A program made the translations under genes and the position numbers. Shown here piece after piece: positions 2,933-42,625 of a DNA stretch of 64,000 bases. This DNA comes from Phragmitibacter flavus (GTDB taxonomy: Bacteria > Verrucomicrobiota > Verrucomicrobiia > Verrucomicrobiales > Verrucomicrobiaceae): NCBI RefSeq assembly GCF_005780165.1, contig NZ_VAUV01000018.1, positions 1-64,000 of the forward strand, given 5' to 3'. The first letter of the stretch is position 1; each line of letters opens with the position of its first letter. A model generated the notes under the pieces. It saw nothing but the letters and a program-made list of their open reading frames with translations, was not told the origin of the DNA and made no database searches.

Positions 2933-3976
2933 ATGCGCCCTCTGCTCCGACTCCTCATCTCGATGCTTCCCATCAGCGTCATGGCAAATCCTCCGCCCCA
3001 CTCCTGGCAATCGCTCCCGCCTATTCCTGACCCCATCGGCTTTGCCGCTCCCTTCGCCGGCACCCACAACAAAGTCCTCATCGTCGCGGGCGGTGCCAAC
3101 TTCCCAGAAAAATCTCCCTGGCAGGGCGGCACCAAAATCTGGCACGACCGCGCGTTCATCCTCGAAAAGCCCGACGCCCAATGGCGAACAGATTTTCACC
3201 TCCCTCGTCCCCTGGCTTACGGGGTCTCCATCAGCACTCCCCGAGGCATCGTCTGCATCGGTGGCAGCGATGATCAACAACACTTCCGCGACGTCTTCCT
3301 CCTTCAATGGCTAGACGGGAAACTTCTCACCCAACCCCTGCCGTCGCTTCCTCAAACCTGCGCCAACGCCTGCGGAGCCGCCATCGGCAATACCCTCTTC
3401 GTCGCCGGAGGCCAGACAACCCCCGCCTCCACATCCGCCCTTCACACCTTCTGGTCACTTGACCTCACCTCGCCCAATCCCACCTGGCAAACCCTCGAAC
3501 CCTGGCCCGGTCCCGCCCGCATCCTCGCCACCGCCGCCGCCCACGAGGGTTTCTTTTATCTCTTCAGCGGTGCCGACCTCACCCCCGGTCCCGATGGCAA
3601 AGCTCAACGCACCTGGCTGAATGATGCCTACCGTTATCACCCGGACCAAGGATGGAAAAAACTCTCCGCCCTCCCCCGGCCCGCCGTCGCCGCCCCATCT
3701 CCCGCACCGCTCCTCAACCCCACTTCGATTGCCGTCCTCGGCGGAGATGACGGAGCGCAACTCCATGTCGCCCCCACCGCGCACCAAGGTTTCCCCAAAA
3801 CACCCCTCGTCTACGACATCCCCACCAACCTCTGGCGCGAAGCCCCCGCCCTGCCTTTCTCCCTCGTCACCACCACGGTTGTCACCTGGCAAAACCTTTT
3901 CGTCATCCCCGGAGGCGAAGCCAAACCCGGCATCCGCTCCACCGAAGTCTGGTCCCTCCCCTTGTCACAGCCTTAA
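2933..3976 (+). CDS. kelch-repeat mutarotase, N-acetylneuraminate epimerase (NanM)-like
   Basis: A 347-residue exported beta-propeller. Residues 1-18 form a signal peptide (hydrophobic L-L-R-L-L-I-S-M-L, then A-N). Kelch blades follow, with typical G-G motifs (V-A-G-G-A-N-F-P, I-G-G-S-D-D, V-A-G-G-Q, L-G-G-D-D) and conserved W/Y positions. This resembles the YjhT/NanM family, which interconverts sialic acid anomers in the periplasm. The ATG at 2933 starts the signal peptide; an upstream ATG at 2900 would add 11 unlikely residues. The next gene, a lyase of the NanA family, starts 48 bases downstream, which supports a sugar-acid catabolic role. The exact sugar is an inference. Confidence 0.8.
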   Translation: MRPLLRLLISMLPISVMANPPPHSWQSLPPIPDPIGFAAPFAGTHNKVLIVAGGANFPEKSPWQGGTKIWHDRAFILEKPDAQWRTDFHLPRPLAYGVSISTPRGIVCIGGSDDQQHFRDVFLLQWLDGKLLTQPLPSLPQTCANACGAAIGNTLFVAGGQTTPASTSALHTFWSLDLTSPNPTWQTLEPWPGPARILATAAAHEGFFYLFSGADLTPGPDGKAQRTWLNDAYRYHPDQGWKKLSALPRPAVAAPSPAPLLNPTSIAVLGGDDGAQLHVAPTAHQGFPKTPLVYDIPTNLWREAPALPFSLVTTTVVTWQNLFVIPGGEAKPGIRSTEVWSLPLSQP

Positions 3977-4024
3977 CCCTCATTCTTTATCCTGTAGCCC
4001 TTATCCTTTATCCTATATCCTTTT
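3977..4024 (+). repeat. pyrimidine-rich TTTATCC-type array, copy A
   Basis: The whole spacer between the mutarotase stop and the lyase start consists of degenerate 6-8 base units (TTTATCC, TGTAGCC, CTTATCC, TATATCC) and ends in CCTTTT directly before the ATG. Four related arrays occur at 20227, 21041, 34815 and 35063, always on the coding strand. Confidence 0.8.
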
Positions 4025-4936
4025 ATGAAAATCACCGGCCTCGTCGCCGCCACCCACACCCCTTTCCATCCAGACGGATCGCTCAATCTCGCCATCGTCG
4101 AAACCCAGGCCGCCCACCTCCTCAAAACCGGCGTCCGTCATGCCTTCATTGGCGGCACCACCGGCGAAAGTTCCTCCCTCACCCTCGAAGAACGCCAGGC
4201 CATCGCCGTTCGTTGGATGGAAGTTACCCGGGGCAGCGACCTTCGCGTTATCGTCCACGTCGGCACCAACAGCCTTCACGACGCCGCCACGCTCGCCCAA
4301 CAAGCCCAATCCCTCGGTGCCTTCGCCACCAGCGCCGTGGCTCCCAGCTACTTCAAACCTGCCACAGTCTCCGCCCTCGTCAGCAGCATGGCTTTCATCG
4401 CCGCTGCCGCACCCGACCTGCCATTCTACTACTACGAAATCCCCACCATGACCGGCTTGGCGATCTCCCCCTCCGCCTTCCTCACCGCTGCCCACGATCA
4501 GATCCCCAACCTCGCAGGGCTGAAATTCACCAGCAGCAACCTCATGGAATACCAGCTCTGCACGCACGCCCAACAAGGCATCTTCGACATCCCCTTCGGC
4601 TTCGACGAAATGCTCCTTGCTTCACTCGCCCTGGGTGCCCGTGGTGCCGTCGGATCCAGCTTCAACTTCGCCGCTCCGATCTATCTCAACGTCATGGATG
4701 CCTACCATCGCGGCGATCTCGAATCCGCCCGAGCCCATCAATTCCGCTCCGTCCAGCTCATCCAAATCCTCGCCTCTTATGGCTACATGGCCGCCGCCAA
4801 AGCCACCATGAAAATGCTCGGAGTCGATGTCGGCCCTCCCCGTCTCCCCACCGAACTCCTCACTCCCGAACGCGTCACTACCCTTCAACGCGAACTCGAC
4901 CAACTCGGCTTCTTCGACTGGGTCAAAGTCAGTTAG
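4025..4936 (+). CDS. DapA-superfamily aldolase, N-acetylneuraminate lyase-like
   Basis: A 303-residue class I TIM-barrel lyase. The G-G-T-T-G-E-S motif near residue 40 binds the keto-acid carboxylate. F-Y-Y-Y-E-I-P near 137 supplies the catalytic Tyr, and the Schiff-base Lys lies in G-L-K-F-T near 165. The F-Y-Y-Y-E-I-P and G-F-D-E-M-L signatures favour N-acetylneuraminate lyase over dihydrodipicolinate synthase. The partner mutarotase lies directly upstream, so the pair plausibly converts and cleaves sialic acid or a similar sugar acid to pyruvate plus an amino sugar. No transporter, kinase or epimerase for a complete nan pathway is adjacent. Substrate assignment remains tentative. Confidence 0.85.
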   Translation: MKITGLVAATHTPFHPDGSLNLAIVETQAAHLLKTGVRHAFIGGTTGESSSLTLEERQAIAVRWMEVTRGSDLRVIVHVGTNSLHDAATLAQQAQSLGAFATSAVAPSYFKPATVSALVSSMAFIAAAAPDLPFYYYEIPTMTGLAISPSAFLTAAHDQIPNLAGLKFTSSNLMEYQLCTHAQQGIFDIPFGFDEMLLASLALGARGAVGSSFNFAAPIYLNVMDAYHRGDLESARAHQFRSVQLIQILASYGYMAAAKATMKMLGVDVGPPRLPTELLTPERVTTLQRELDQLGFFDWVKVS

Positions 4937-4943
4937 TTCGTCA

Positions 4944-6212
4944 CTACTGCACCGCATAATCTTCCGCCTTGAAACAGTCGCGGGTCGCATACTTGCTCAT
5001 GAACCGCAGCAACCCCCGACTATACGCCCGCGTCGTCAATCCCCCCGCCGCCATCCCGGCAATGTGACGCGACATGTGCTTTTGCATCATCATGCTAAAC
5101 TTGCCAGGATACCTCTCCGAAAACTGCATCCCACTTTTGAACAACGCAAAGATGCGACCGTCATAAAAGTAATCGATCAGATCCTGCCAGGCCACCAGCT
5201 CGTTGCGGAACCAGTCGATATACTCCCCCGCCTTTGACTCCCAGTCCCCGCCCTGAATGATCACATCCGCCAGCCTTTCCGCTGACACCATCGCCATGCA
5301 CAATCCCGGAGACAGCATCGGGTCGACAAACCCAAACGAGTCCCCCACCGCCGTCCAGTTCCGTCCATGACCTCGATGCGATATCAACTGATAGTTCGCA
5401 TAGGTCGTCACCGGCGAAATCCGCACCCGATCACGACAGGTCGAAATCAAAACCGGCGACTCCTCAATGATCCGCTCCAGCTGTTCCTCCGGCGTGTCTC
5501 CATACTTCTTCGCATGCTCCTTGTTGATCACCACCCCCACCGACACCTTGCCCGGCAATGGAATCCTCCATCCCCATCCATGCTTCAGCCTTGAAATCAA
5601 CGTCTGCCCCGACGGCGGCGGCATCACGCAACCCTCATAATGCGCAAAGTGCGACACATCCTTGCGCAACCCCACATCCGCACCGATCCCCAGCAGCTTC
5701 GCAAAAAGACGCCGACGCCCACTCGCGTCGATCAACAAATCCGGCTGCCTCCCACCCCATTCCGGCACCAGCGCCAACGTCTCCGCCGATAACTCCGGCG
5801 CCCCGTCCACCAACTCCAATTTTGCGGACACCTTCACAAACTTAGCGCCAGCCTCCAGCGCCGTGTCAGTGATCAACTGGTCAAACTCACGCCTCGGCAC
5901 ATTATACGCATAAGTCGGCAACACCCCTTCAATGGCATCAAACGACAACAGCAACGCTTCCTCATCACTCAAAGACCAGGTTACCCCCGGTTTGTAAGTT
6001 CCCAAAGCCGCCACCTTCTCCTCAATTCCCAGCCTGCGAAACACCGTCACCAACAGTGGTATCAGTGACTCCCCCACCACCATCTCCGGGCGTTTTTCAT
6101 CGTCAAAAATCACCGCCTCCATCCCCGCCCTCGCCAGCAAACACGCCAGGGTGCAACCTGCCGGTCCCGACCCAACAATAGCAATCCGTCGTTTCGAATT
6201 CACTGCAACCAT
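4944..6212 (-). CDS. FAD-dependent oxidoreductase, tryptophan-halogenase-like
   Basis: About 422 residues. The dinucleotide-binding motif G-S-G-P-A-G begins near residue 14 (numbered from the 6212 start). V-G-E-S-L-I-P follows, in the place of the halogenase G-E-S/A-T-V-P signature, then Lys74 in T-Y-K-P-G, aligning with the catalytic Lys79 of PrnA. W-G-W-R-I-P at 213-218 fits the halogenase W-x-W-x-I-P motif, and G-D-S-F-G-F-V-D-P is the second FAD motif. Together these suggest a flavin-dependent halogenase or a close relative. The frame also opens at 6263; 6212 places the Rossmann motif as in the family. It lies downstream of the SAF-domain dehydrogenase on the same strand, so the two may be co-transcribed. 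No flavin reductase or biosynthetic cluster is nearby, so the substrate is unknown. Confidence 0.75.
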   Translation of the reverse strand: MVAVNSKRRIAIVGSGPAGCTLACLLARAGMEAVIFDDEKRPEMVVGESLIPLLVTVFRRLGIEEKVAALGTYKPGVTWSLSDEEALLLSFDAIEGVLPTYAYNVPRREFDQLITDTALEAGAKFVKVSAKLELVDGAPELSAETLALVPEWGGRQPDLLIDASGRRRLFAKLLGIGADVGLRKDVSHFAHYEGCVMPPPSGQTLISRLKHGWGWRIPLPGKVSVGVVINKEHAKKYGDTPEEQLERIIEESPVLISTCRDRVRISPVTTYANYQLISHRGHGRNWTAVGDSFGFVDPMLSPGLCMAMVSAERLADVIIQGGDWESKAGEYIDWFRNELVAWQDLIDYFYDGRIFALFKSGMQFSERYPGKFSMMMQKHMSRHIAGMAAGGLTTRAYSRGLLRFMSKYATRDCFKAEDYAVQ

Positions 6213-6285
6213 TTCAAATTTTCGCTGCAAAGCCGTCAAAGGCAAGGCCCGTAACCGGATCATCCCAAATCAACAGGCTGAATCA

Positions 6286-7488
6286 TCACACCGCCAAAAC
6301 CGGAACTGATGCTGCCGCCGCTTCACGCACACTCAGCCAGGCCGTCTTCGCCAGACTGTCAGGAATATCTACATCGGCAAAAGCCACCACCTGCCCTTTC
6401 GAAATCGAGTGCTTCAGTTGTGCCTTCTTCAAAAGCCCCAAAGCCACGGCATCAGGCGTTTCGGCAATCGTCACCGCCTCGCCCCGCAAATCCATGCCCC
6501 CGATGGCCGTGTCAATCACATGACCTGCTGGAAGATCGCGCTTCGCCACCGCCACTACATGCACGGTCGGACGGCTTCCATTGTTCAACAAGATCGGCTC
6601 GCCTCGCAAAATCCGCCTGATCGTGCGCGGCACCTCCAAATGACACAGATGATAAGGCCGCAGCAACGTATAATACGGCCCGTCACCCAACTTCAAATAC
6701 CGCAACACCTCAGGTCGTTCCGTCGGATGCTCACCCACGATGAACACCCCCGGTGCCAGCTTCCCGTTCAATACATAATCGCTGATCGGTCCCCCGAACT
6801 CCTTCGCCTTCGCGCCAAGAAAAGAGCCCGCCGCCTCCAACTCCATATTCTGAGGCCCAATCATCGCTCTTTGATAAATTCCCGCGCCCAAGCCATTCGC
6901 CACCAGCGCCTGCTCAAACTGCATCTTCGTTCCATCGGTGAAACTCACCACCTGCGAGCGGCTGATCCCATTTTTCTCCGCCCAGAAATCCATCTCCGCA
7001 TCCTTCGGATCATGATTCAGAAAACCCTTCATGTTGCCATAAACGAGCGGCTTGAAACCCATTTGCACCACCTCCTCATGCAAAAGTGCCAATGCCCCAG
7101 GCTGATCCCCCTCCGCCTCCGTCAGAATCCCCCGGTCCGCAAAATACGACCCCACCGTCACATGAAACTCCGTCGCCATCGTCACCACCGGCAAACCGCG
7201 CAACTGCGCCGCATTCACCACCTCGCTGCCATGCACAATATCCCCGCTGCACTCCACCACCAGATCGCAACTGGAGAGAAACTCCTCAAGCGAATTGGTC
7301 AATCCATACTCCGCCATGCTGCCCACGCTATCCACCGGCCGACGCGTCAACACCCGGGTCAAGAGCAAATCTGGCGACGATCTCAACGCCAGGCACAAAC
7401 CCATCGCGATGAATCCCGTCCCAACAATGCCAATTCTTGCCTTCTCGACATCAAGGTAACGGTGGTGATCTGCTGGCCGACTATGCAT
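6286..7488 (-). CDS. NAD(P)-binding dehydrogenase with C-terminal SAF domain (homoserine dehydrogenase-like)
   Basis: About 400 residues. The Rossmann motif I-G-I-V-G-T-G-F-I-A lies near residue 18, with D-L-V-V-E-C-S-G-D at the end of the nucleotide domain. A middle catalytic region includes Y-G-N-M-K-G-F and a conserved D-G-T-K-M. The C-terminus has an SAF-type segment (V-A-K-R-D-L-P-A-G-H-V-I-D) of the kind found in sialic acid synthase and altronate dehydratase. The combination is known in homoserine dehydrogenase-like proteins of poorly defined function, probably sugar or aldehyde metabolism. The ATG at 7488 is preferred to the frame opening at 7539. The halogenase-like gene begins about 70 bases downstream. 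Confidence 0.75.
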   Translation of the reverse strand: MHSRPADHHRYLDVEKARIGIVGTGFIAMGLCLALRSSPDLLLTRVLTRRPVDSVGSMAEYGLTNSLEEFLSSCDLVVECSGDIVHGSEVVNAAQLRGLPVVTMATEFHVTVGSYFADRGILTEAEGDQPGALALLHEEVVQMGFKPLVYGNMKGFLNHDPKDAEMDFWAEKNGISRSQVVSFTDGTKMQFEQALVANGLGAGIYQRAMIGPQNMELEAAGSFLGAKAKEFGGPISDYVLNGKLAPGVFIVGEHPTERPEVLRYLKLGDGPYYTLLRPYHLCHLEVPRTIRRILRGEPILLNNGSRPTVHVVAVAKRDLPAGHVIDTAIGGMDLRGEAVTIAETPDAVALGLLKKAQLKHSISKGQVVAFADVDIPDSLAKTAWLSVREAAAASVPVLAV

Positions 7489-7581
7489 ATGGGTTAACCA
7501 TTTATGTATAGCCTCATCCCCGCATGGAAAGCAATTCATTCTCAGCAGTAAATCTTCGCCTCATATCCCCCAAGGCGAAGC

Positions 7582-10503
7582 CTATAAGCCCCCACGTCGA
7601 CGACGCCAAACCATGCCCACCACTCCCGCGAGCAACAAAATCACCCTCGAAGGCTCCGGCACCACCGACACCCTCACATAAAATCCATCGTCATCCGCGA
7701 ACGTCGTCCACATCAGCCCATCCCCCAGAGTCGGCATCGAAGCCAGCGTCGGCACCCCCACCGCCCGGTTCGCCGCCGTCACCCCGCTCCAGTCGATCAG
7801 CATCCACGTGTCGTTCTCATTCCAGGTCCAGGCCCCCAACGCCGTCACGTCCAAAGAACTTCCCACCAACGACACCGAACTGCTGCTGAACAACCTCAAC
7901 ACATCGTTTTCTCCCAGCGGATCACTCACGCCCGCGCCGTCGTTCGCAAACAAATCAAACTGCAAGCGCCCGGCCAGATTGATCGCCACATTGGTCAGCC
8001 CCCCCACCGCATCATTCCCCAACACCAGATCCTGGGCCAATCCGCCCGTCACCCCGTGCGTGTTCCCCACCATCAAGAACGTCCCCGCCGACAACGTGAT
8101 GCTCGCCGCCTCGCCACCGGTGATGCTCCCCGTCCCGCCCAGTTTCGCCCCCGAATTCGCCAGCGTCAGCACATTCCCAAATCCCGTCGCCGAACCAGTC
8201 GTGTTTCCCGCCAACAGCGTCCCTGCCTCCACCCGTGTCGGCCCGGTGTAAGTATTCGAATTGGTTAAACTCAAGATCCCATTGCCCCTCTTCGTCAGTC
8301 CCGAAACCTGGCCTGCCTGCTGCGAAATCACCCCCGCCAGTTCCGCCGAATCGCCCCCCACCCCTTGGTTCACCGTAAAATTCCGCTGACTGCCATTGGA
8401 GTTCAGATTGATCGCGTTCACCACCGTCACCTTGCTATCCGCCGTCGCCGATCCAAAAATGAAATCATTGCCGAAAATATGCAGCGATGTGTTAAGCGCA
8501 CTCTGCGCCCCCGACCCACCAAAATTGACCGTTAAATCCCCGCCCCTCGCCGCAAATCCACCATTCTGCCCGCCCCCCTGACCCGCCGCTGGCGTTGCAC
8601 TGTTGCTGAACCCTCTGATGAACGAACCATTCCCCTGCAAAACCCCATTGCCGTTGAGATAAAGCCCCCCGCCGCCCAGTGCCCCGGAACTGATCGTCCC
8701 CACATCCAACACCCCGCCCAACACCGACGTCATCCCGGTATTCAAATTCGTTCCCGTCAGCGTCAACGTGCCCGGCCCCCGCTTCGTCAACGCCCCCGTC
8801 GTCGCCGTGCTGCTGCCGCTCACGGTGAGATTCGTCGCCGCATTGGTCACCTCAATCGTCCCAGTCGTTCCGGCGTTGATCACAAAATTCCGATCCGTCG
8901 ACGCCGTCGCCCCCGTGTATTGAATCCCCCCGCCCGCAAACACCCAATTCGTCGCCGCATTGCTCGAAGCCCCCAAATTCCCCACCACCCCGCCATCCCC
9001 AATCGTCGCCACACTTACCAGTCCGCCACCAAGACTCACCCCACCCGTGAACGTATTCTGCGCCGACAAAATCAGCAATCCCGTCCCCAGCTTGTTGATC
9101 CCCGACGGCGAAAATCCCGCCCCGCCATTCGACACCACCCCACGCAACTCCGCCGAATCCCCACCCGCCCCCCCCGTCACCGTAAAATTCCGCTTCCCGT
9201 TGCTGTTGATGCTGATCGGATTCAGCACCACCACCTTGCTGTCCGCCGTCGCCGAACCAAAACGGAAATCATTCCCAAAAATGTATCCCGACCCGTTCAA
9301 TGCAATCTGCGCCGACGCCCCGCCAAAATTCAGCACCAGCTCCCCACCCCGCGCTGCAAACCCGCCATTCTGACCCGCCACCTGCCCCGCACCAGGATTG
9401 GCGCTGCTGCTGAACGCCCGCGTAAACGTCCCATTCCCCTGCAAAATCCCGTTCCCATTGATCAATAATCCACCGCTACCCAACGCCCCCGTGCTGATCG
9501 TGCCCACATCCAGCACGCCCTCAAGAATCGTCGTCAATCCCGTGTAACCGCTCGCCACCGGGGCCAGCGTCAGCGTCCCGTTCCCCGTCTTTGTCAGCGC
9601 CGATTCTCCATCGGCGTGATTCAAGATCCCCCCCGTAAACACCACATTGCCCACCGCCGCATTTACCACCAAATCCCTCGCCGCACCGATCGTCACCGGC
9701 CCGCCAATCGTCAATGCACCCGCTCCCACATTCATCAACCCGTTCACCTGCAAAGCCCCTGTCAAACCCGCCGCCGACGCTCCCGTATACCGGATCGTGT
9801 TCACCGAAGCATCCGCCACCAGCGCCCCACCCGCCGCCAGATCGTAATTCACCGTCCCCGTCACATCAATCATGTCTGCCGCAGTCGCCGCCGCCACGCC
9901 CGACAAGCCCACCACATTTCCCCCGCTCAACGTCGCATAACGAGTCGCCGCCCCCGTGCCGTGACTCGCCCACGCCCCGATGATCCCCGAACTCAGCGAA
10001 ATATTCGACGTCGTCACCGTGCCACTCCCCCGCACGTTCAACACCGATCCTGCCGACCGCGTGAAAACACCCGTTCCCAAGGTCAACACTCTCCCGGTCC
10101 CCACATTCCACACTTGCTGACTCCCTTTCAACATCGTCAGCCCGGACAGAATCGACAAATTCGGCCCGACCGCACTCATGTTGATCCCGCCAGAACTCAG
10201 CGTCAGCGTGTGAATCCCGCCAATCGTGACATCACCGCCCGGAGCCACAATCTCAATCCCCAACCATGTCCGGTCGGCACCCAACAAAACTGAATTCGCC
10301 CCCGTCACCGCACTCGTCCACCGCGCCGAATCAAACACCCCCGGCACCGCTCCCGACCAGCTCGAAGCCAGATTGAGATTGTCCGCGTTGTTCGCCTTGT
10401 CCACCGCCGACACCTGCATTGACAACGACCATAACAACCCAGCCATCACCAAAACCGCCACTCTGTCGCGCAGAAAAAGAATAGAGCTGAACATAAGCGT
10501 CAT
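7582..10503 (-). CDS. PEP-CTERM protein with autotransporter-type beta-strand repeats
   Basis: About 973 residues. The N-terminal signal peptide (M-T-L-M-F-S-S-I-L and a long hydrophobic stretch ending Q-V-S-A) precedes a Gly/Asn/Thr-rich body of autotransporter-associated repeats such as T-K-T-G-N-G-T-L-T-L and Y-T-G-P-T-R-V-E-A-G-T-L. Two blocks of about 150 residues are near-duplicates. The C-terminus is a PEP-CTERM signal: V-P-E-P, a hydrophobic helix, then R-R-R-R. Exosortase processing and surface location are expected from the family, but no exosortase gene is in the window. Starting at 10503 puts the signal peptide first; the frame opens at 10560. Confidence 0.88.
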   Translation of the reverse strand: MTLMFSSILFLRDRVAVLVMAGLLWSLSMQVSAVDKANNADNLNLASSWSGAVPGVFDSARWTSAVTGANSVLLGADRTWLGIEIVAPGGDVTIGGIHTLTLSSGGINMSAVGPNLSILSGLTMLKGSQQVWNVGTGRVLTLGTGVFTRSAGSVLNVRGSGTVTTSNISLSSGIIGAWASHGTGAATRYATLSGGNVVGLSGVAAATAADMIDVTGTVNYDLAAGGALVADASVNTIRYTGASAAGLTGALQVNGLMNVGAGALTIGGPVTIGAARDLVVNAAVGNVVFTGGILNHADGESALTKTGNGTLTLAPVASGYTGLTTILEGVLDVGTISTGALGSGGLLINGNGILQGNGTFTRAFSSSANPGAGQVAGQNGGFAARGGELVLNFGGASAQIALNGSGYIFGNDFRFGSATADSKVVVLNPISINSNGKRNFTVTGGAGGDSAELRGVVSNGGAGFSPSGINKLGTGLLILSAQNTFTGGVSLGGGLVSVATIGDGGVVGNLGASSNAATNWVFAGGGIQYTGATASTDRNFVINAGTTGTIEVTNAATNLTVSGSSTATTGALTKRGPGTLTLTGTNLNTGMTSVLGGVLDVGTISSGALGGGGLYLNGNGVLQGNGSFIRGFSNSATPAAGQGGGQNGGFAARGGDLTVNFGGSGAQSALNTSLHIFGNDFIFGSATADSKVTVVNAINLNSNGSQRNFTVNQGVGGDSAELAGVISQQAGQVSGLTKRGNGILSLTNSNTYTGPTRVEAGTLLAGNTTGSATGFGNVLTLANSGAKLGGTGSITGGEAASITLSAGTFLMVGNTHGVTGGLAQDLVLGNDAVGGLTNVAINLAGRLQFDLFANDGAGVSDPLGENDVLRLFSSSSVSLVGSSLDVTALGAWTWNENDTWMLIDWSGVTAANRAVGVPTLASMPTLGDGLMWTTFADDDGFYVRVSVVPEPSRVILLLAGVVGMVWRRRRGGL

Positions 10504-10589
10504 GATTGAAAAACGGAAAATCGAACCTTCGAAAAAAATCCTAGCACCGCCTTCCCCCATCCGTCATTCAACTATCGCCACCCAATCTT

Positions 10590-11753
10590 TCAGATTTTGC
10601 GTCGCTTTCGAAACTCTCCCGGCGTCATCCCTGACCGACGCTTAAATGCCTCAGCCATGTATTGCGGATGCTCAAATCCCGCCCTCTCGGCAATCGCCGC
10701 CAAGGTCAAATCCGACTGCGCCAGCAGATTTTCCACCAGCCTGAATTTGACCCGGTTGATCTCCTCCCCCGGCGACCTTCCCAGCACCGACATCATTCTT
10801 CGCTCCAGCACGCTTCTCGACAAACACGCCGCCCTCGCCACCTCTTTCACCCCGATCCCCTCCGCCGCATGCTCACGGATGAAAAACAACGCCCTGGCCA
10901 GCTGCTCATCCTCCACCGCCACGATTTCCGAAGACTGCCGCACCACAATGTCCCCCGTCGGCAATCCTACTGACATCCGCGGCGCCTCTTTTTTCCCCGA
11001 CTTCATCCACTCCGCCAGCAACTCCGCCGCCGCAAACCCCACTGCCTGACCGCGAAACTGCACACTCGACAACGGTGGCCACGCCGTCTCGCACAAGGTC
11101 GAATCATTCTCCGCCCCCACCACCGCCACCTGCTCCGGCACCAAAATCCCCGCCCTCCGCGCCGCATCCAGCAGCCAAAACCCCAATTGATCGCTGCAAG
11201 CAAACACCCCCACCGGTTTCTCCAACGCCACTAGCCAGTCCGCCAGCGCCCGCTGATGCTCATCCCACGTCATTTCCCGCGACGGAGAAAACGCCTCAAA
11301 CACCGGACACCCAAACCCCTCCTCGTTCACCACCTCCACAAAACGCTCCATCCGCTCCAAAAAATACCGCTCCGACGGATCCAGATAACCAGCAAACCGC
11401 TGAAAACCCCGACTCCGCAAATGCCCCGCCACCCGCTCCCCCATCTGCCGGTTGTCCATTCCCACAAAAGGAAACCCATGCTTCAAACTCGTTGTGCGCA
11501 GTTCCACTACCGGCAATCCCGTCGCCTCCAGCTGTGACAACATCTCCGCACTCCCCGACCTTGCCAAAATCCCGTCCCCCGACCACCCCTCCAGCCACTT
11601 CGGAAACTGCGACATCAAATCCCGCGGCTCAAGAAACAGCGACCACGGCCCATGCTCCGTCGCATACCGACGAATCCCCTGCACAATGTCACGACCATAA
11701 CTCCGCGACGTATCCACCAGCACCGCGATCTGTGGAATCTTCTCCCTCGCCAT
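10590..11753 (-). CDS. XylR-type AraC-family transcriptional regulator with sugar-binding domain
   Basis: A 387-residue regulator. Residues 8-270 form a LacI/periplasmic-binding-protein-like ligand domain (I-A-V-L-V-D-T-S-R-S-Y-G at the start, V-G-V-F-A-C-S-D near 180). Two AraC helix-turn-helix motifs follow (G-V-K-E-V-A-R-A-A-C-L-S-R-S and T-L-A-A-I-A-E-R-A-G-F-E-H-P-Q-Y). This order matches the XylR family, which senses a sugar and activates catabolic genes. It is the last gene of a three-gene minus-strand run after the acyl-CoA ligase (22-base gap). Its targets could be that run or the PEP-CTERM gene downstream; the sequence does not decide. Confidence 0.88.
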   Translation of the reverse strand: MAREKIPQIAVLVDTSRSYGRDIVQGIRRYATEHGPWSLFLEPRDLMSQFPKWLEGWSGDGILARSGSAEMLSQLEATGLPVVELRTTSLKHGFPFVGMDNRQMGERVAGHLRSRGFQRFAGYLDPSERYFLERMERFVEVVNEEGFGCPVFEAFSPSREMTWDEHQRALADWLVALEKPVGVFACSDQLGFWLLDAARRAGILVPEQVAVVGAENDSTLCETAWPPLSSVQFRGQAVGFAAAELLAEWMKSGKKEAPRMSVGLPTGDIVVRQSSEIVAVEDEQLARALFFIREHAAEGIGVKEVARAACLSRSVLERRMMSVLGRSPGEEINRVKFRLVENLLAQSDLTLAAIAERAGFEHPQYMAEAFKRRSGMTPGEFRKRRKI

Positions 11754-33315: not shown

Positions 33316-34668
33316 TCACTTTCCAACGCAATACAACCGGTCCTGCGCACGAATGAGCAACATCCCATTGGTCGGAACAATCGCCGCCCGCACGATGTTA
33401 TCGCTGTTCGTTCCGGTCACGCCTTCCATGCCGAAATCCGCTTCGAGCAACACTTCCATCGCACTACCGCCCGCCTTCACGACGAACACTTTGCCGAGCT
33501 GGTCCACCACATAAATCTTTCCATCCGCACCCGTTGGTGATGCTTCAATCTTCGTCCGGGTCGGGAACTCCCCGCGCCAGATCACGTCCCCCGTTTTCGG
33601 CTCAATGCAAGCCAGCGTCTTGCGGTCACTGTCCAGCACATAAAATTTCCCCTGGTAGAACGAAGGCGTGCTCACATCACTGCTCACCTCACGCGCATTC
33701 GACGTCCAAAGCGGATCCACCGAGCCCTTCGAATCCAGCTTCACGCCAAACACCGGCTCCTTCTTCGGCGCACAAGCCAAAACCACCCCGTCACCTGCCA
33801 CTGGGGAAGGCACCAGTCTCCAATGTCCGATCTTGGCCGAGTTCCACGAGTTCAATCTCCACAACTCCTTGCCCGTTTCCGCATCATGACCCGTCATCGT
33901 GTCCCCACCGGAAATCAGCATCAAACGTTTGCCTTCAAAAGTGTGAAACACCGGCGATGAAAACGCCTCCAGCGACTCCGCCACCGCATCACTGGCCCGC
34001 ACCTGACGCCAGATCTCTTTGCCCGTTGCTGGTTCCAGCGCCAAAATGTAGCTCTCGTTCTTGCCGTTCGGATCGCCCTTTTGCATGCCGTTGAACTCAA
34101 ACGCCTCATTGCGCTGCAGCACCTGGATATACAGCTTGTCACCGTCCAGCACCGGACTCGTCGAATACGTCCACTGCGTCCCAAAGTTCCCGTAATCCTT
34201 GCCCAAGTCCCGCTTCCAAACTTCCTTCCCTTCAAAGTCGAACGCCACCAGCACACTGGTCCCATAAAGGAAATACACCAGCTTGCCGTCCGTTGCCGGC
34301 GAAGGAGAAGCCAGATTGCTGCGGTCATCGTGCTTGTAACCATCCGTCACCTCATGCTGCCATTTGATCCCGCCCGTTTTGGCATCCACACACATCGCCA
34401 GCAGCTTCTGATCGCTTGGACGCGATGAACTTACAAAAATCGAATCCCCCCAAACCGCCGGACTCGAAGCCGCAGGCCCCGGCATGTCGACCGCCCATTT
34501 GATCCCATCCGTGCGCGAAAATTTCTCGGGCAAACCCGTCGCCGGACTCGATCCATCATGATTCGGCCCCCGGAAACCCGGCCAGTTTGCAGCGCTTAAC
34601 GACGCCCCAGCCAGGACCAAACTCGAAACCGATACTGTGCAAAGAGTGGATAGAAAAAACGACTTCAT
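33316..34668 (-). CDS. PQQ-like beta-propeller protein, exported (paralogue)
   Basis: About 450 residues. The signal peptide M-K-S-F-F-L-S-T-L-C-T-V-S precedes W-P-G-F-R-G-P-N-H-D-G, the same entry motif as the protein at 27458. Blades show A-x-T-G-x-x-x-W repeats (D-A-K-T-G-G-I-K-W, E-P-A-T-G-K-E-I-W, D-A-E-T-G-K-E-L-W, E-P-K-T-G-D-V-I-W). The 34668 start is favoured over an opening at 34758. It lies upstream of, and divergent from, the thiC leader. Function is unknown. Confidence 0.85.
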   Translation of the reverse strand: MKSFFLSTLCTVSVSSLVLAGASLSAANWPGFRGPNHDGSSPATGLPEKFSRTDGIKWAVDMPGPAASSPAVWGDSIFVSSSRPSDQKLLAMCVDAKTGGIKWQHEVTDGYKHDDRSNLASPSPATDGKLVYFLYGTSVLVAFDFEGKEVWKRDLGKDYGNFGTQWTYSTSPVLDGDKLYIQVLQRNEAFEFNGMQKGDPNGKNESYILALEPATGKEIWRQVRASDAVAESLEAFSSPVFHTFEGKRLMLISGGDTMTGHDAETGKELWRLNSWNSAKIGHWRLVPSPVAGDGVVLACAPKKEPVFGVKLDSKGSVDPLWTSNAREVSSDVSTPSFYQGKFYVLDSDRKTLACIEPKTGDVIWRGEFPTRTKIEASPTGADGKIYVVDQLGKVFVVKAGGSAMEVLLEADFGMEGVTGTNSDNIVRAAIVPTNGMLLIRAQDRLYCVGK

Positions 34669-34814
34669 AAGAACAAAAGACACAAGGGTGAGCAATCTAA
34701 ACGCAATCCGCAGCGCAAATCGCACGACCAAAAAACAAGATTCCGCCACTTTGTTCAAGCCTTAACCGCATCTTTTCGCCCCAATCCGTTCATCCCCCTC
34801 CCGCACCAGCCAAC

Positions 34815-37089: not shown

Positions 37090-37320
37090 ATGATCCAAGC
37101 CGAAGATCTCGTTGGCCAGGAATGGGCGGAATGGTATTCGCTCACTCCTGAACAACGCTGGCTGGAAAGTGAACGTCTCTGGCAAACCTATCTCGCCTTA
37201 GGAGGAAGCCTTGATCCCGAACCCGATACTCAAAGTCCTTTCTTCGATGCACGAGCACCAGGTCCGCTGCCTGCTCATGGGCGGCCAGGCCTGCGTATTT
37301 TACGGCGCGGCCGAGTTTAG
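37090..37320 (+). CDS. small hypothetical protein overlapping a nucleotidyltransferase gene
   Basis: A 76-residue frame with W-A-E-W-Y-S-L-T-P-E-Q-R-W-L-E-S-E-R-L-W, a helical segment I associate with small proteins encoded before nucleotidyltransferase-like genes in planctomycetes and verrucomicrobia. L-G-G-S-L-D-P-E-P-D follows. The last 110 bases overlap the next gene in another frame, and the tail (R-P-G-L-R-I-L-R-R-G) is basic. It may be a partner or antitoxin-like protein. Support comes from composition and position only. Confidence 0.5.
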   Translation: MIQAEDLVGQEWAEWYSLTPEQRWLESERLWQTYLALGGSLDPEPDTQSPFFDARAPGPLPAHGRPGLRILRRGRV

Positions 37321-37714
37321 TCGCGACACCGATCTCGCCATCCTCGCCAGCGAAGCCAATGCGGAAAAGTTGCTTCAAGCCTTGGCCGCGTTACAGGCCA
37401 GCGTTGTCGCCGTTCCCTCTTTCGATCTCCAATACCTTCATCACGGCCACGCCATCCACTTTCGTTGTCAGCATCCCGACGCCCAAGGCATGCGGGTCGA
37501 CGTGATGTCCCGCATGCGCGGCGTCGACGACTTTCCTTCCTTATGGGAACGACGCACCGTCATTGAACTGCCCGACGGCACCCCATGCGACCTTCTTTCC
37601 CTTTCTGATCTGGTCCAGGCCAAAAAGACCCAGCGTGACAAAGACTGGCCCATGATCCGGCGTCTCGTGGAATCCCACTACTTTCAAAACCATACTGTTC
37701 CCAACGGGTATTAG
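37211..37714 (+). CDS. nucleotidyltransferase-fold protein (AbiEii/MNT-like)
   Basis: A 167-residue protein. L-L-M-G-G-Q-A-C-V-F-Y-G and S-R-D-T-D-L-A-I form the G-G and D-x-D signatures of the DNA polymerase-beta-like nucleotidyltransferase fold. V-D-V-M-S-R-M may supply the third Asp. The remainder has L-S-L-S-D-L-V-Q-A-K-K-T-Q-R-D-K-D, a pattern seen in small standalone nucleotidyltransferases. Its first 110 bases overlap the 76-residue frame upstream. Function could be toxin-like (AbiE or MNT type) or aminoglycoside-type; the sequence does not decide. Confidence 0.72.
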   Translation: MIPNPILKVLSSMHEHQVRCLLMGGQACVFYGAAEFSRDTDLAILASEANAEKLLQALAALQASVVAVPSFDLQYLHHGHAIHFRCQHPDAQGMRVDVMSRMRGVDDFPSLWERRTVIELPDGTPCDLLSLSDLVQAKKTQRDKDWPMIRRLVESHYFQNHTVPNGY

Positions 37715-37966: not shown

Positions 37967-39034
37967 ATGTCCCGAGACCAAAAGTCGGCAAGAGATCTAA
38001 AATTGCCACCTTGCCCGCTGCCCAGGCCGGGTGACGAGGTGATCTGGTATACGGACTCAGTTCCTCATCGCGGGAAGCTTGAGGGGCACGGAACGAAGGG
38101 GCGTCCGCACGTCAGAAGTGAGCTGCAACATTCCTTTGTATTAGATTCTTTCGATGTCGTTAGGTTACAAGATACTGCCCATCGTAGAGGACCAGCTTGG
38201 GAACATCTTCCAGATGGGGGTCGCATTTTTTGTGCAACTGCGTCAGAACAGCAATTGTTTGGCGTCTTGCTTGCTCGACCGGTCCCACCTGGCCCCAGAT
38301 ATGCCGAACTGATTACTGAAATTTGGTCCCGTGGATTTGAAATATTCGTGGTTGGCGGGACTGTTCGTGACGTTTTGGCGGGCAAAGAAACTCACGACGT
38401 TGATTTGGTCACCACCATGCCATTAAATAGCGCTTCACGCTTACTTAAGGCGATGTATCGTAGCGACCCCCAAATATCAGACAAAAATGGTTATGTAAGA
38501 CTCGGTGGAGTGCCAAGATTAGGGGATCCATTTATAGACCTGAAAATGTTTTCGCTTGCGGCCCCAGGAACCGAAAATGCAATCTTCGGTGCTGACTTTT
38601 GTAGTGACGTCGGACATCGTGACTTTTCTTGTAATGCGATATATTACGACCCAATTAACGCAGTGCTAATCGATCCATCAGGCAGAGGTATTGAGGACGC
38701 CAAAGAGAGCAGACTCTGCTTAGTCTGTGACCAAGCTTCAAGGCGCCCAAAGCAACGGGCACAAATCGTCATTCGTTTCCTAAAATTCAAAATGCGTGGA
38801 TTCGAAGCTACTGTTGAGACCATCGAAACAATAACGAAAGACTATCTTCCTGATCTTGCGGCTATGGATGGGAGCGAACGATTGCGCTATCTGAAGGCAC
38901 AAGTGATCAACAAATGTGCACCTGGCGATCGGCAAGCTAAACTTGAACAATTTCGCATATGTATGATTGAGTTTGGAGCTGAACGCGAATGGGTGAAGTT
39001 TTTCCAACCACTTGTAAAAGATATTCTTTCATGA
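37967..39034 (+). CDS. CCA-adding-enzyme-like nucleotidyltransferase, first gene of a NACHT cassette
   Basis: A 355-residue protein. Residues 20-70 look like a small beta-barrel (P-G-D-E-V-I-W...G-K-L-E-G). The class II tRNA nucleotidyltransferase head follows: V-V-G-G-T-V-R-D at 128-135, D-V-D at 144-146, a candidate third Asp at 191, motif B as H-R-D-F-S-C-N-A at 217-224, and a motif-C-like R-A-Q-I-V-I-R-F-L near 264-272. No E-D-x-x-R base-selection motif and no C-terminal tail are visible, so it is unlikely to be the housekeeping CCA enzyme. It overlaps the NACHT gene by four bases. Local base composition is AT-rich, unlike the flanks. Confidence 0.85.
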   Translation: MSRDQKSARDLKLPPCPLPRPGDEVIWYTDSVPHRGKLEGHGTKGRPHVRSELQHSFVLDSFDVVRLQDTAHRRGPAWEHLPDGGRIFCATASEQQLFGVLLARPVPPGPRYAELITEIWSRGFEIFVVGGTVRDVLAGKETHDVDLVTTMPLNSASRLLKAMYRSDPQISDKNGYVRLGGVPRLGDPFIDLKMFSLAAPGTENAIFGADFCSDVGHRDFSCNAIYYDPINAVLIDPSGRGIEDAKESRLCLVCDQASRRPKQRAQIVIRFLKFKMRGFEATVETIETITKDYLPDLAAMDGSERLRYLKAQVINKCAPGDRQAKLEQFRICMIEFGAEREWVKFFQPLVKDILS

Positions 39035-41061
39035 ACCTAGACTCTGCAATTCATTATTTTTGCAAGCCGGTTGTGAGGCACGCCGATAGGTTCGTTGAAT
39101 TGGATCCTCACGAAGACATCGGATTTGAGGTAACTCCGTTTGCGGAAATTGAACAGTATTTGAAGAGACATTTCACAACTACGACTGGCCCAGTGGAAAT
39201 TGCTGGCAGGAGTTACACTTTACCTGTCTTCGTCCCAAAAAATACAGACAAAATTTGCTATGTTTTAGTGGACGGCTCGGGTCTGCCAACAGAGGAGTCT
39301 CCGACCAAACAAACAGACACAGAGTGGATAACTGAATATTCTCATTGGATAGCTGAAAAGCTTTCGTTCTCGGAAGGATTGGCGAAAGATCAGGCAGCAT
39401 ACCTAGAGACCGAGTTTTTATCGCCGTCCCTATCTGAGGTGGACCCTTACACTCTTAGTTCGACGAGAAGCGTAACCTGGGAGTATGCGCTCTCAAGAAA
39501 AAGGTGTGTCCTATTGGGGGAGCCCGGAACTGGAAAGACAACTTTACTGAGGCGGTGGGCATTAAATTTTTGCAAGGACGTATCTAGAGGAGAGCAGCCA
39601 ACTTCGATACCTGTCTACTTTCAGCTTCGCGATTGGCAAGATGAGCATAGCGCTAGTCACGCTTTAAATCAGGCTTGTTTTGGTTCAGATGGTGGATCTG
39701 ACTCAAAAGCCACAATGCGATCACTCTGTCGCGCTGGCAGGGTAGTTCTCCTGCTCGATGGCTTAGATGAGGTTCCTGACTCGAAGCGTCAGGTGATCTC
39801 CGATATGATTTCCCGCCTTGCCAACGATTCCCCAATGATCGGAATTATTCTTTCTACCCGCACCGCCTCTTACAAAGGGGATTTTCAAGGGTTTAGTCAT
39901 TGTTTACTAAGGCCTTTCGAAGACTCACACATGCTAGAATGGAGTTACAAAAAGCTATATTCACATGACCGTTTAAGTTGGCATCGCTTTGTCAGACACC
40001 TGAATGAACTGCCTCAAATGAAGGATGCAGCAAGAAATCCGTTTTTGCTTGGATTGCTAGTGCATTTTTATCGCCAAAACTCAGTGCTTCCAAAAGATTC
40101 GGCAAACCTGTTATCTAGCTATGTTCGAGCCCTGTCAGGAGAATGGGATATGGTTCGAGGAATTAGCAGGTCAAGCGAATCTTGGGCGGCTCCTGGGAGA
40201 AAACTCTCTTCGCTTTGTCGGTTGGCATTTTGGCTGGTAGACTCAAATAGATCTGACTTTTCAACGGAAGAATTCTGCTCCTCCGAAATTAAATACGCTG
40301 AACGCGACATTTCACTTCACCTGCTCCCAGCTCTGGTGGAGCACACCGGCCTTTTACAGTGTGTAGACCATCATCGAAGAAGTTGGAAATTTTCGCATCG
40401 GACATTGATGGAGCTTTTCGCTGCGAACTACCTAGTTGAGCGTGCGGATGATGTTTCGAGTCTGTTTGTCAATCGTTGGGCGAACCCAACTTGGAGGAGT
40501 ATTTGGGTCTATGCTTGCGGTCTTGCTCAGGATGCTGGCCACCTAGTTCAGCTAATACTAAACGACAATCAAATAGCCGAGACACACAGGGCCTCTTTGC
40601 TGGCGAGAGCTTTTGCACAAAACCTAAATATGAGGGAGAGTGATATTGAAAAGGGTTGTGCTGTAATTATGAAGGCGGTGGACGATTTACTGCGTTCATT
40701 TAAGCTCGCACAATCCAGAGAACCGATTGCCAAGGATGTCTTGTGGTGTATCAAACTTAAACATAAGGAATCTCTTGCCAAGTGGGAGAATTTTAATCGC
40801 GAGGAAGCAATTGCTTTGTTGTGCGACGTATACGCAGGGCGTTCAGGCGTTTTGGGTAAATATGTCAGGAGTGTTCCAAGTGGATCTGAGTCTCTCGAAC
40901 TCGTCAAGTTCTTAGAGGGTTTGAGTCAAGAAGGTGATTTCAAAGTGAACGTTGTAGATGATGATGCGTCAGGCACTGGGCTTTTGATTATCTACATTTC
41001 CATTCCCGAGCATTCAACTGTCCAAAAAAGTGAATGGGCTTCGACCGACTGGGGAAAATGA
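39031..41061 (+). CDS. NACHT-type STAND NTPase
   Basis: A 676-residue protein. An N-terminal region of about 150 residues of unknown fold precedes Walker A G-E-P-G-T-G-K-T-T (163-171), Walker B V-V-L-L-L-D-G-L-D-E (238-247) with the extra acidic pair typical of NACHT ATPases, and a sensor-1-like S-T-R (275-277). A helical region follows (R-N-P-F-L-L-G-L-L). The C-terminal 250 residues contain no obvious TPR, WD40 or LRR repeats. Bacterial NACHT proteins include phage-defence sensors. ATG 39031 overlaps the upstream stop (ATGA). The effector might be the N-terminal region or the upstream nucleotidyltransferase. Confidence 0.88.
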   Translation: MNLDSAIHYFCKPVVRHADRFVELDPHEDIGFEVTPFAEIEQYLKRHFTTTTGPVEIAGRSYTLPVFVPKNTDKICYVLVDGSGLPTEESPTKQTDTEWITEYSHWIAEKLSFSEGLAKDQAAYLETEFLSPSLSEVDPYTLSSTRSVTWEYALSRKRCVLLGEPGTGKTTLLRRWALNFCKDVSRGEQPTSIPVYFQLRDWQDEHSASHALNQACFGSDGGSDSKATMRSLCRAGRVVLLLDGLDEVPDSKRQVISDMISRLANDSPMIGIILSTRTASYKGDFQGFSHCLLRPFEDSHMLEWSYKKLYSHDRLSWHRFVRHLNELPQMKDAARNPFLLGLLVHFYRQNSVLPKDSANLLSSYVRALSGEWDMVRGISRSSESWAAPGRKLSSLCRLAFWLVDSNRSDFSTEEFCSSEIKYAERDISLHLLPALVEHTGLLQCVDHHRRSWKFSHRTLMELFAANYLVERADDVSSLFVNRWANPTWRSIWVYACGLAQDAGHLVQLILNDNQIAETHRASLLARAFAQNLNMRESDIEKGCAVIMKAVDDLLRSFKLAQSREPIAKDVLWCIKLKHKESLAKWENFNREEAIALLCDVYAGRSGVLGKYVRSVPSGSESLELVKFLEGLSQEGDFKVNVVDDDASGTGLLIIYISIPEHSTVQKSEWASTDWGK

Positions 41062-41201: not shown

Positions 41202-42006
41202 ATGAACCCCACCCTCTGCATTCTCGGCGGCTGCAATGGAGCGGGGAAGACAACACTCGCGCGAGAATTGCTGCCGAGGCTGGGGTTGATGCGCTTTCTG
41301 AACGCGGACGAGGTAGCGCGAGGGCTTTCGCCGCTCGATCCTTCACTCAGCGCATTCAAAGCGGGTCGTCTTGTCCTGGAGGAAGCGCGTTCTATGATCA
41401 AGGCCAAGGCGAGCTTTGCTTTTGAGCCGGAAGCCTTGGGAAGGCTGTAGACAGACTGATCGGAGATCAGCCCGAAGGGCGGCGGACTGGGATGTCCGTC
41501 GTCAATCGACACTCAGCGGAAAAACCTATGTGGCGTTGATTCGAGATGCGAAAGAAAAGGGTTATCGCATCCTGTTACACTACATTGTCATCGGCTCTGC
41601 CACGCAGGCCGTCGATCGTGTGGCGTTGCGGGTGAAATTGGGAGGGCACAATGTGCCGAATGACGATGTGCACCGCCGCTTTGAACGTAGCCGCAGGCAC
41701 TTCATCGAAGCTTGCCTGCCACTTGCTGATGAATGGGGATTGTGGGATAATCAACAACCACCGCCAAAGCAGATCGCTGACAGCCAAACGTATACCCTCG
41801 ACCAACTGCTAGCCATGCTCAATTTCCCCAACCTCCAGGAAACGCCTCCCGCTGAAATGTCGGAAATGTCTAAGATCGAGCTCGAAGCCAGCCGCGTCGC
41901 AACAGAGAAGATGCTCGACTACTACAAGCGCATTGGCATCAAGGTGACGCCTCAGATGACGCTGGCTCCTGAAAAGCCGAAGCGGACGCGGCGTAAAGTT
42001 GGGTGA
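41202..42006 (+). pseudogene. zeta-toxin-like P-loop kinase interrupted by a 79-base insertion
   Basis: The 5' part (41202-41426) encodes I-L-G-G-C-N-G-A-G-K-T-T-L, N-A-D-E-V-A-R-G-L and S-F-A-F-E, as in COG4185/zeta-like kinases. The 3' part (from 41506, another frame) resumes exactly with S-T-L-S-G-K-T-Y and continues through G-Y-R-I-L-L-H-Y-I to a complete C-terminus. Only 41427-41505 separates the halves and it brings a stop and a +1 shift. The gene is therefore broken unless the segment is removed or bypassed. An ORF with a strong AAGGAG site starts at 41141 upstream and overlaps it; an antitoxin was not identified. Confidence 0.82.
41427..41505. repeat. 79-base insert of four consecutive hairpins
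   Basis: Four perfect short inverted repeats follow one another: AGCCTT-GGG-AAGGCT (41432-41446), CTGATC-GGA-GATCAG (41456-41470), GCCC-GAA-GGGC (41470-41480) and CGGAC-TGGGAT-GTCCG (41483-41498). The segment lies exactly between the F-E and S-T-L codons of the kinase. No target duplication is obvious. It resembles a small palindromic element. Confidence 0.7.
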
Positions 42007-42106: not shown

Positions 42107-42625
42107 CTACTGAGCTTCGGGGGCTTCAGTGAGAAATGCCAGATCAAAAATAAGCTTGGCCTCTTTGGCGTAGTCGCCTGGCTCACTGAGGATTACTTCG
42201 CCTTGCACCCGGTCACCCGTGATCGTGGCTTTGCCTTTCAGGATGGTTTGGTCCGCCTCGTTCTTCTTGGAGAAGACTGCCCCGCCACCGTCCCCCACCA
42301 GGTAACGTAGCGTGCCGTCGGGCTTGAAGGAGGCTTTAATATAAGAAGCATTACCTTCCAAGGTCTGCGTCTCTTCCGCGTTCGCCTTTACCACCTGCTC
42401 AATCTGTTTCGCCGTCAGCGGCTTGACGGTCGCAATCACAATGATGCGGGGATCATTGAACGATTTCCCTCGCAGTGCGACCACATGGTTATAAACCGTG
42501 GGGCGGCCTTGCACGCTGAGACTGGCCTCAGCTTGTGCCGATGCTTCCTGAGCTACGGCGATAACTGGCAGGGTGGTGACCAAAAAAGCCGTGACGGCCA
42601 TCGAACGAATAAGTGGAAGAATCAT
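42107..42625 (-). CDS. secreted hypothetical protein (paralogue pair, member 1)
   Basis: About 172 residues. A signal peptide (S-M-A-V-T-A-F-L-V-T-T-L-P-V-I-A-V-A-Q) is followed by a beta-rich domain with V-V-A-L-R-G-K-S-F-N-D-P-R-I-I-V, A-S-F-K-P-D-G-T-L and a closing L-I-F-D-L-A-F-L-T. It resembles the first domain of the larger protein encoded at 42794-43831, and both are transcribed in the same direction. The start at 42625 gives the signal peptide at the N-terminus; the frame opens at 42703. No known family was recognised. Confidence 0.7.
   Translation of the reverse strand: MILPLIRSMAVTAFLVTTLPVIAVAQEASAQAEASLSVQGRPTVYNHVVALRGKSFNDPRIIVIATVKPLTAKQIEQVVKANAEETQTLEGNASYIKASFKPDGTLRYLVGDGGGAVFSKKNEADQTILKGKATITGDRVQGEVILSEPGDYAKEAKLIFDLAFLTEAPEAQ

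Follow-up and report, generated by a model that had tools for sequence, protein, structure and literature searches.

A divergent CCA-type nucleotidyltransferase overlapping a NACHT NTPase gene in Phragmitibacter flavus: a candidate two-gene conflict module

Class II CCA-adding enzymes and bacterial poly(A) polymerases (PAPs; PF01743, represented by the structures 1miv, 6ibp and 3aqm) share a catalytic head marked by the motifs GGxxRD, DxD and RDxxxN. In these enzymes the neck supplies an Asp and an Arg with which the incoming CTP or ATP pairs, and tRNA is bound by the body and tail (PMC3925840; here and below, statements cited to a PMC number rest on part of the source). Here we analyze a 64,000-nucleotide stretch of the Phragmitibacter flavus genome (contig NZ_VAUV01000018.1, positions 1 to 64,000; hereafter the window), in which the gene for a nucleotidyltransferase (NT) carrying the same three motifs overlaps that for a NACHT-family STAND NTPase (Table 1). 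Unlike its class II relatives, the NT lacks the neck Asp and Arg, the first Arg of RRDxxxN, and the PolyA_pol_RNAbd and HD domains; it falls on a separate side of the tree and, in an AlphaFold2 (AF2) prediction, has a putative extra barrel at its N-terminus. That it is a re-purposed CCA-type enzyme, from a clade of which part is found in conflict-like company, is well supported. An original prediction for this DNA had proposed a defense cassette in which a NACHT switch controls a tRNA- or RNA-tailing enzyme; the re-purposed enzyme and the conflict-like settings of part of its clade uphold one side of that interpretation, but a fixed partnership of NT and NACHT is not supported.

Several other described systems resemble parts of the locus. 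Bacterial NACHT proteins (bNACHTs; EruA, HyoA and DS-8 in NCBIfam) have the NACHT domain and intact Walker motifs in common with the window protein, which also has a weak match to EruA; they differ from it in that the window NACHT has no recognized fused effector, the candidate effector being the separate gene upstream. Clade 14 bNACHTs are also without a readily discernible effector (PMC12169576), and in DS-8, from DefensePredictor, NACHT is joined to a metallophosphatase (PMC13092281). MenT, a toxin whose nucleotidyltransferase activity alters the acceptor ends of tRNA (PMC11541572), is comparable only in how it may work; our NT belongs to a different family (PolyA_pol in Pfam). In TRADD-N proteins a nucleotidyltransferase domain of the Pol-beta superfamily has been reported as a likely conflict-system effector; compared by its description in the available part of the source, that domain is neither called PolyA_pol or CCA-type nor paired with NACHT (PMC8195603). 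Within the accessible parts of the open literature on NACHT/STAND proteins, nucleotidyltransferases, SLATT proteins, polymorphic toxins, CCA enzymes and defense, we found no description of an NT and NACHT pair or of the NT clade, as the original prediction had supposed for the pair.

Table 1. Features of the gene pair, with positions counted from the first nucleotide of the window
Feature	Coordinates	Strand	Basis or component motifs
NT gene: 355-residue nucleotidyltransferase of a distinct PolyA_pol clade, without neck motif	37967..39034	+	Open reading frame (ORF), Pfam, motif alignment, tree
Putative N-terminal small beta-barrel, SH3/Tudor-like (NT residues 24-66)	38036..38164	+	AF2, Foldseek, alignment
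PolyA_pol catalytic head	38342..38716	+	GGTVRD 38354-38371; HDVD (D144, D146) 38393-38404; D191 in FIDLK 38531-38545; HRDFSCNA 38615-38638
Neck QRAQIVIRFLKF in place of canonical EDxxRxxRAxRF; base-selecting Asp and Arg absent	38753..38788	+	Motif alignment
ATGA stop/start overlap (putative translational coupling)	39031..39034	+	
NACHT-family STAND NTPase, 676 residues (alternative start 38989)	39031..41061	+	ORF, Pfam, NCBIfam
NACHT domain	39502..39933	+	Walker A 39517-39540 (K169); Walker B 39748-39771; ILSTRT, which we take to be sensor-1-like, 39847-39864

PolyA_pol is the sole domain that Pfam assigns to the NT (residues 126 to 250), at a score of 53.1 bits (E = 5.3e-14) where 23 would pass. 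The tRNA nucleotidyltransferase head motifs named in the original prediction are intact: GGTVRD at residues 130 to 135, D144 and D146, and RDFSCN at residues 218 to 223. A third acidic residue, D191, is also kept. From these residues we predict an active nucleotidyltransferase of the polymerase-beta fold. At the neck QRAQI stands where EDxxR is expected, and the first Arg of RRDxxxN is gone; no match to PolyA_pol_RNAbd (PF12627), HD or any other RNA-binding domain was found in Pfam at an E value of 1, in keeping with the earlier remark that neither a base-selection motif nor a tail is visible. The best match of the head among PDB sequences is 1miv (E = 1.2e-7), and its sequence relatives there belong to the CCA-adding enzymes and poly(A) polymerases; matches to the pcnB and CCA models of NCBIfam are weak and far below cut-off. 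No model of the CD-NTase or SMODS type matched in Pfam, PADLOC or NCBIfam. Kinship with MenT or AbiEii was considered and rejected, since at an E value of 1 Pfam gives PolyA_pol only and PADLOC (the AbiEii model included) nothing; MenT, the example named in the original prediction, is not the fitting relative.

The genome holds a second PolyA_pol gene (two in total), whose 452-residue product has PolyA_pol, PolyA_pol_RNAbd (PF12627, E = 3.6e-17) and HD domains, a tRNA_NucTran2_2 match below cut-off and the neck EDRLR. Because this separate enzyme is a complete one of the CCA/PAP type, we regard the NT as accessory and free from housekeeping, and reject it as the housekeeping CCA enzyme; the original prediction had named a sole housekeeping CCA enzyme as a finding that would refute it, and the NT is not one.

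The AF2 model of the NT, built on an alignment of five rows, is poor (mean predicted local distance difference test [pLDDT] score 54.1). Its N-terminus, ahead of the head, has strands at residues 24-29, 32-41, 47-51, 56-58 and 64-66, with block pLDDT values of 67 to 77 for residues 21-60 and 47 for residues 61-70, which suggest a small barrel. Foldseek ranks CCA-adding enzymes first for the whole model, none below an E value of 1e-3, and aligns the N-terminus over 41 to 65 columns with biotin ligase and Tudor barrels, none significantly. In the alignment, two related proteins (at loci L053 and L060; L and G numbers are our labels for loci and genomes) have a stretch similar to this barrel ahead of their heads.

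We compared 16 clade members with 18 hand-picked canonical enzymes in a core alignment, leaving out L054. The neck Asp and Arg are absent from all 16 member rows and kept in all 18 canonical rows, and the first Arg of RRDxxxN is distributed identically (lost in 16/16, kept in 18/18); the catalytic DxD is kept in all 34. The third acidic residue aligns in the window row and in the Myxococcota-type rows (by which we mean the phylum groups of genomes G452 and G450); in the seven Streptomycetaceae rows it is misaligned, with an Asp or Glu a few residues off and the position unsure. All 16 sampled members lie on one side of a branch with support of 100/99 in an unrooted tree in which L111 is a long branch, as is the window NT (at most 30% identity to any other row). 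Judged from this alignment and tree, the NT belongs to a distinct clade of PolyA_pol enzymes that is new here. Loss of the neck is not unique to the clade and is weakened as a hallmark by itself: L116 (G1246), a canonical-type CCA/PAP relative, has the degenerate neck ENPGMMVR, with its other motifs unlike those of the clade (it was not placed on the tree).

Searches for NT relatives covered 387 genomes of the phylum, 68 of the family and 218 of the class (overlapping sets that include the window's own genome); the phylum-wide result rests on the matches listed, and neck-motif checks cover matches with a fetched locus. With the single NT sequence, no full-length relative was found among the matches listed in the phylum, in the family genomes, or in plasmids, phages, viral contigs or genome contigs; the listed matches cover parts of residues 65-353, mostly head and neck. 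Five genomes of the class passed, namely the window's own and four with the canonical motif. Among 46 motif rows, three are the window itself, 42 keep the neck motif, and one, a Streptomyces plasmid gene (L048), is without it and aligns to the NT over both head and tail, at 27% identity across residues 107-338. A DNA pattern made from the motif common to the NT and L048 matched only the window copies and L048 among 50 loci; across a collection of 84,980 species it matched eight stretches, comprising four clade members (L052, L053, L055 and L056), three canonical-type genes (L051, L054 and L058) and one chance match (L057). Earlier, a scan of genome contigs without the pattern had given no clade relative, and three NT scans and one NACHT scan of viral contigs gave no relative. 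Sixteen phage records match the NT, annotated as poly(A) or tRNA nucleotidyltransferases or lying in unannotated records. A Methylobacterium plasmid match (H1/L047) was set aside, as it looks canonical and keeps EDYLR.

Streptomycetaceae have clade members in 6 of 297 genomes, seed included. The phylum to which the Kofleriaceae seed G452 belongs had four of 359 genomes above the threshold, two with members (G452 and G993) and two with canonical enzymes; within its family 24 of 30 genomes matched at an E value of 1e-6, and besides the seed none of the 19 loci checked holds a member (five matches without a locus were left out). The phylum of G450 (L053; labeled Myxococcota, to which we take Kofleriaceae also to belong) had 15 of 195 genomes passing, 10 with a locus: seven hold members (G450, G1317, G1315, G1324, G1323, G1222 and G1221), L114 and L115 are canonical, and L116 has the canonical frame with the degenerate neck described above.

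In Streptomyces the NT is part of a five-gene cassette, WD40-PD40-NT-unknown (about 460 residues)-SLATT, complete and in this order in six of eight loci (L048 and L095-L099). L055, which ends at a contig edge, has NT-unknown-SLATT; L100 has the NT with parts of the unknown gene and of WD40, and SLATT was not found there. The cassette may by itself be a conflict system, and its unknown gene has no similarity to the window NACHT. The SLATT protein of L055 matches SLATT_4 (E = 1.6e-30), models that PADLOC labels 'Effector, 2TM' (E = 7.6e-70 for the best), which presumably stand for effectors of cyclic oligonucleotide-based antiphage signaling systems (CBASS), and, more weakly, a SLATT model associated with reverse transcriptases (E = 7.4e-10). 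CBASS and SLATT-effector systems likewise have a nucleotidyltransferase and a SLATT two-transmembrane (2TM) protein in one cassette, a likeness confined to the Streptomyces branch; they differ in that the enzyme here is of the PolyA_pol type with no CD-NTase model match, the cassette adds WD40 and PD40, and no SLATT lies beside the window pair.

This conserved company could mean that the NT makes a signal, joining or modifying nucleotides into a second messenger in the manner of the CBASS CD-NTases, on which the partner acts or which it controls, and a small substrate would fit the loss of the RNA-gripping body. But none of the window ORFs beside the NT encodes a SLATT protein or another obvious signal receiver, the Myxococcota-type members are single proteins with no SLATT match nearby, and CD-NTase and SMODS-type models do not recognize the enzyme; the match to the reverse-transcriptase-associated model further means that a SLATT protein is no proof of a nucleotide signal. 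We consider such a signal-making role rather unlikely.

Some Myxococcota-type members are domains of larger proteins. The NT is at the C-terminus of a 2086-residue Kofleriaceae protein that also contains a UCH peptidase domain (L101), near the C-terminus in L106 (853 residues) and L124 (808 residues), and internal in L125 (728 residues); low-complexity N-termini are seen in L053 (501 residues), L122 (477 residues) and L109 (start unsure). Polymorphic and effector toxins have an enzymatic domain at the C-terminus of a large multidomain protein, with an immunity gene, a layout that L101, L106 and L124 may resemble; the window NT is a separate short protein. A survey of polymorphic toxins names nucleotidyltransferases of the RelA/SpoT type (PMC3482391). 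On gene and domain content, the Streptomyces cassette and the large Myxococcota-type proteins are conflict-like settings for part of the NT clade. L126 and L127 carry short NT proteins next to biosynthetic-type, not conflict, genes. At L125 (G1323, 3094-10627), proteins with repeated 'DGSW'-type units flank the NT-bearing protein in what looks like an effector cluster, and the C-terminal part of that protein has units similar to the surrounding repeats.

Minimal nucleotidyltransferases act in some toxin-antitoxin pairs, such as MntA/HepT, by NMPylation, and the NT might do the same to a protein or small molecule, inactivating a target or silencing its partner. Its catalytic acidic residues are kept while the base-choosing and recognizable RNA-binding parts are lost, and the Kofleriaceae fusion to a UCH-type peptidase is of a kind that protein-acting effectors may show. 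With no partner or acceptor conserved across settings, however, and CCA-adding enzymes and poly(A) polymerases as the PDB relatives of the head, we judge NMPylation to be quite improbable.

The second protein of the window pair is matched by NACHT in Pfam (PF05729, residues 158-301, E = 1.1e-11, 45.3 bits against a cut-off of 26.7); its Walker A motif reads GEPGTGKT (Lys169) and its Walker B motif LLLDGLDE. All 17 Pfam families listed for it are NTPase or P-loop models, with no WD40, TPR or LRR among them, as the original prediction had read it (Walker motifs, no repeat sensor), and no non-NTPase domain, effector or sensor, was found in Pfam, NCBIfam or PADLOC. Against the NCBIfam antiphage model EruA it scores 43 bits (E = 1.7e-11), far short of the 1000 required there; PADLOC matches are weak, the best being PDC-S60 at 2.2e-6. 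A single-sequence AF2 model is too poor to assign folds (mean pLDDT 39.4). Relatives occur in 207 plasmid records (within residues 120-565 among the 40 listed) and, partially, in three phage records (within residues 150-479); in the phylum, three of 387 genomes passed an E value of 1e-12, the window's own included, and by eye no NT-like gene lies near the other two matches in the short locus fetched.

Both ORFs are open over their full coordinates on the same strand in the ORF listing, and the four-nucleotide overlap named in the original prediction was confirmed: the NT stop TGA (39032-39034) overlaps the NACHT ATG (39031-39033), through which the two genes may be translationally coupled. If translation began at the in-frame ATG at 38989, NACHT would have 690 residues and the overlap would be longer. 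The AT-rich composition that the same prediction set against the flanks is equally evident, with a guanine-plus-cytosine (GC) content of 47.8% for the NT and 46.2% for NACHT against 56.1% for the whole window; none of 305 sampled 3.1-kb stretches of the window is as low in GC as the pair, and all five lowest overlap it.

Taken together, our tentative preference, held at somewhat less than an even chance, is that the two genes form a conflict (probably defense) module whose effector, the NT, is switched by NACHT and most likely acts on an RNA 3' end. The NT would be drawn from class II CCA/poly(A) polymerase stock, having lost the ATP/CTP-choosing neck residues and the recognizable RNA-binding body and carrying a small N-terminal beta-barrel. 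NACHT would be an NTP-driven switch that, upon sensing infection or damage, activates the NT in trans; once active, the NT would stop growth by transferring nucleotides onto an essential acceptor, most likely the 3' end of tRNA or another RNA. We infer that the two products work together, that NACHT is the switch, that the acceptor is of this kind and that growth is arrested. A tail-modifying effector is plausible, and no more, given that Cas12a3 immunity is directed at tRNA CCA tails (PMC12851939).

Several observations weigh against this module. Loss of the base-selecting and RNA-binding parts weakens 'RNA tailing', as it argues for another acceptor as much as for RNA, and the AF2 models (mean pLDDT 54.1 and 39.4) are too poor to test a contact between NT and NACHT or a pocket. 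No clear defense gene was found beside the pair, neither of the neighboring ORFs tested being one. The original prediction named homologs that do not travel together as a finding that would refute it, and the comparison came out against a fixed pair: no second copy of the pair occurs among the matches listed or checked in the phylum, family and class genomes, so that it is seen in this genome alone, and the window NACHT matched none of the 17 other NT loci at an E value of 1e-4 (by tblastn, which would miss a divergent STAND protein; three of the loci are 7.1 kb or shorter). Nine of those 17 loci have none of the Streptomyces partners either.

With the pair seen once, those nine loci showing no common neighbor by eye, and flanks made up of weakly assigned or split accessory ORFs, the two genes might be chance neighbors in a variable spot, the NT acting on its own as a toxin-like or orphan enzyme and NACHT being a defense gene unrelated to it. 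Against this stand the ATGA overlap, the common strand, the matching low GC and a NACHT protein without a recognized effector domain, which the NT could supply; we regard chance proximity as unlikely.

The surroundings bear on the accessory island of the original prediction, which we can sustain in part. The interval from thiC to the gene at 42107 is taken up by the gene for a 167-residue protein, by the pair and by two ORFs over which a zeta/AAA_33-like kinase is split. In the thiC neighborhoods of six relatives, one (G393) carries a homolog of the gene at 42107 about 4.6 kb downstream, and the interval holds other genes; in two more, a region some kilobases away matches 33316-34758 weakly (24%), and three share thiC alone among the 16 window proteins tried; none of the six gave a clean empty site for the pair, and repeats as marks of island ends are weak, short ones only. 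A variable spot fits these data, with the absence of a second copy in sampled relatives, the split kinase and the G393 interval in its favor, but with one relative of six as its supporting case.

Directly upstream of the pair, the 167-residue protein (37211-37714) has a weak AbiEii match (PADLOC, E = 0.019), and its C-terminus may be cut off; downstream, the zeta-toxin/AAA_33-like kinase occupies two overlapping ORFs (41202-42006) and is apparently frameshifted. In G393 the C-terminus of thiC is repeated immediately after the gene (L153, 7929-8153), and short second thiC matches in L149 and L152 are perhaps also insertion marks at the site. GC skew takes values of about -0.06 to -0.53 in the window up to 38 kb and of about -0.2 to +0.2 beyond, with the cumulative minimum near 38 kb.

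A broader proposal, which we put forward as doubtful, is that the clade is an unrecognized CCA-enzyme-derived group re-purposed as a general conflict enzyme in at least three phyla (the window's own, Actinomycetota and Myxococcota), switched by NACHT here, in Streptomyces teamed with a SLATT pore, and in the Myxococcota-type members built into large effectors, and that its chemistry, whether an unspecific RNA tail, a new nucleotide signal or protein NMPylation, is an undescribed mode of immunity. The catalytic residues D144, D146 and D191, the switch residue K169 and the intact Streptomyces five-gene cassette are its testable parts. If true, a universal tRNA-finishing fold would have been turned into an immune or toxic enzyme by shedding its base-choosing and RNA-gripping parts, one enzyme would be plugged into differing switches and outputs across phyla, and the effectors of NACHT/STAND and SLATT systems would gain a new catalytic type.

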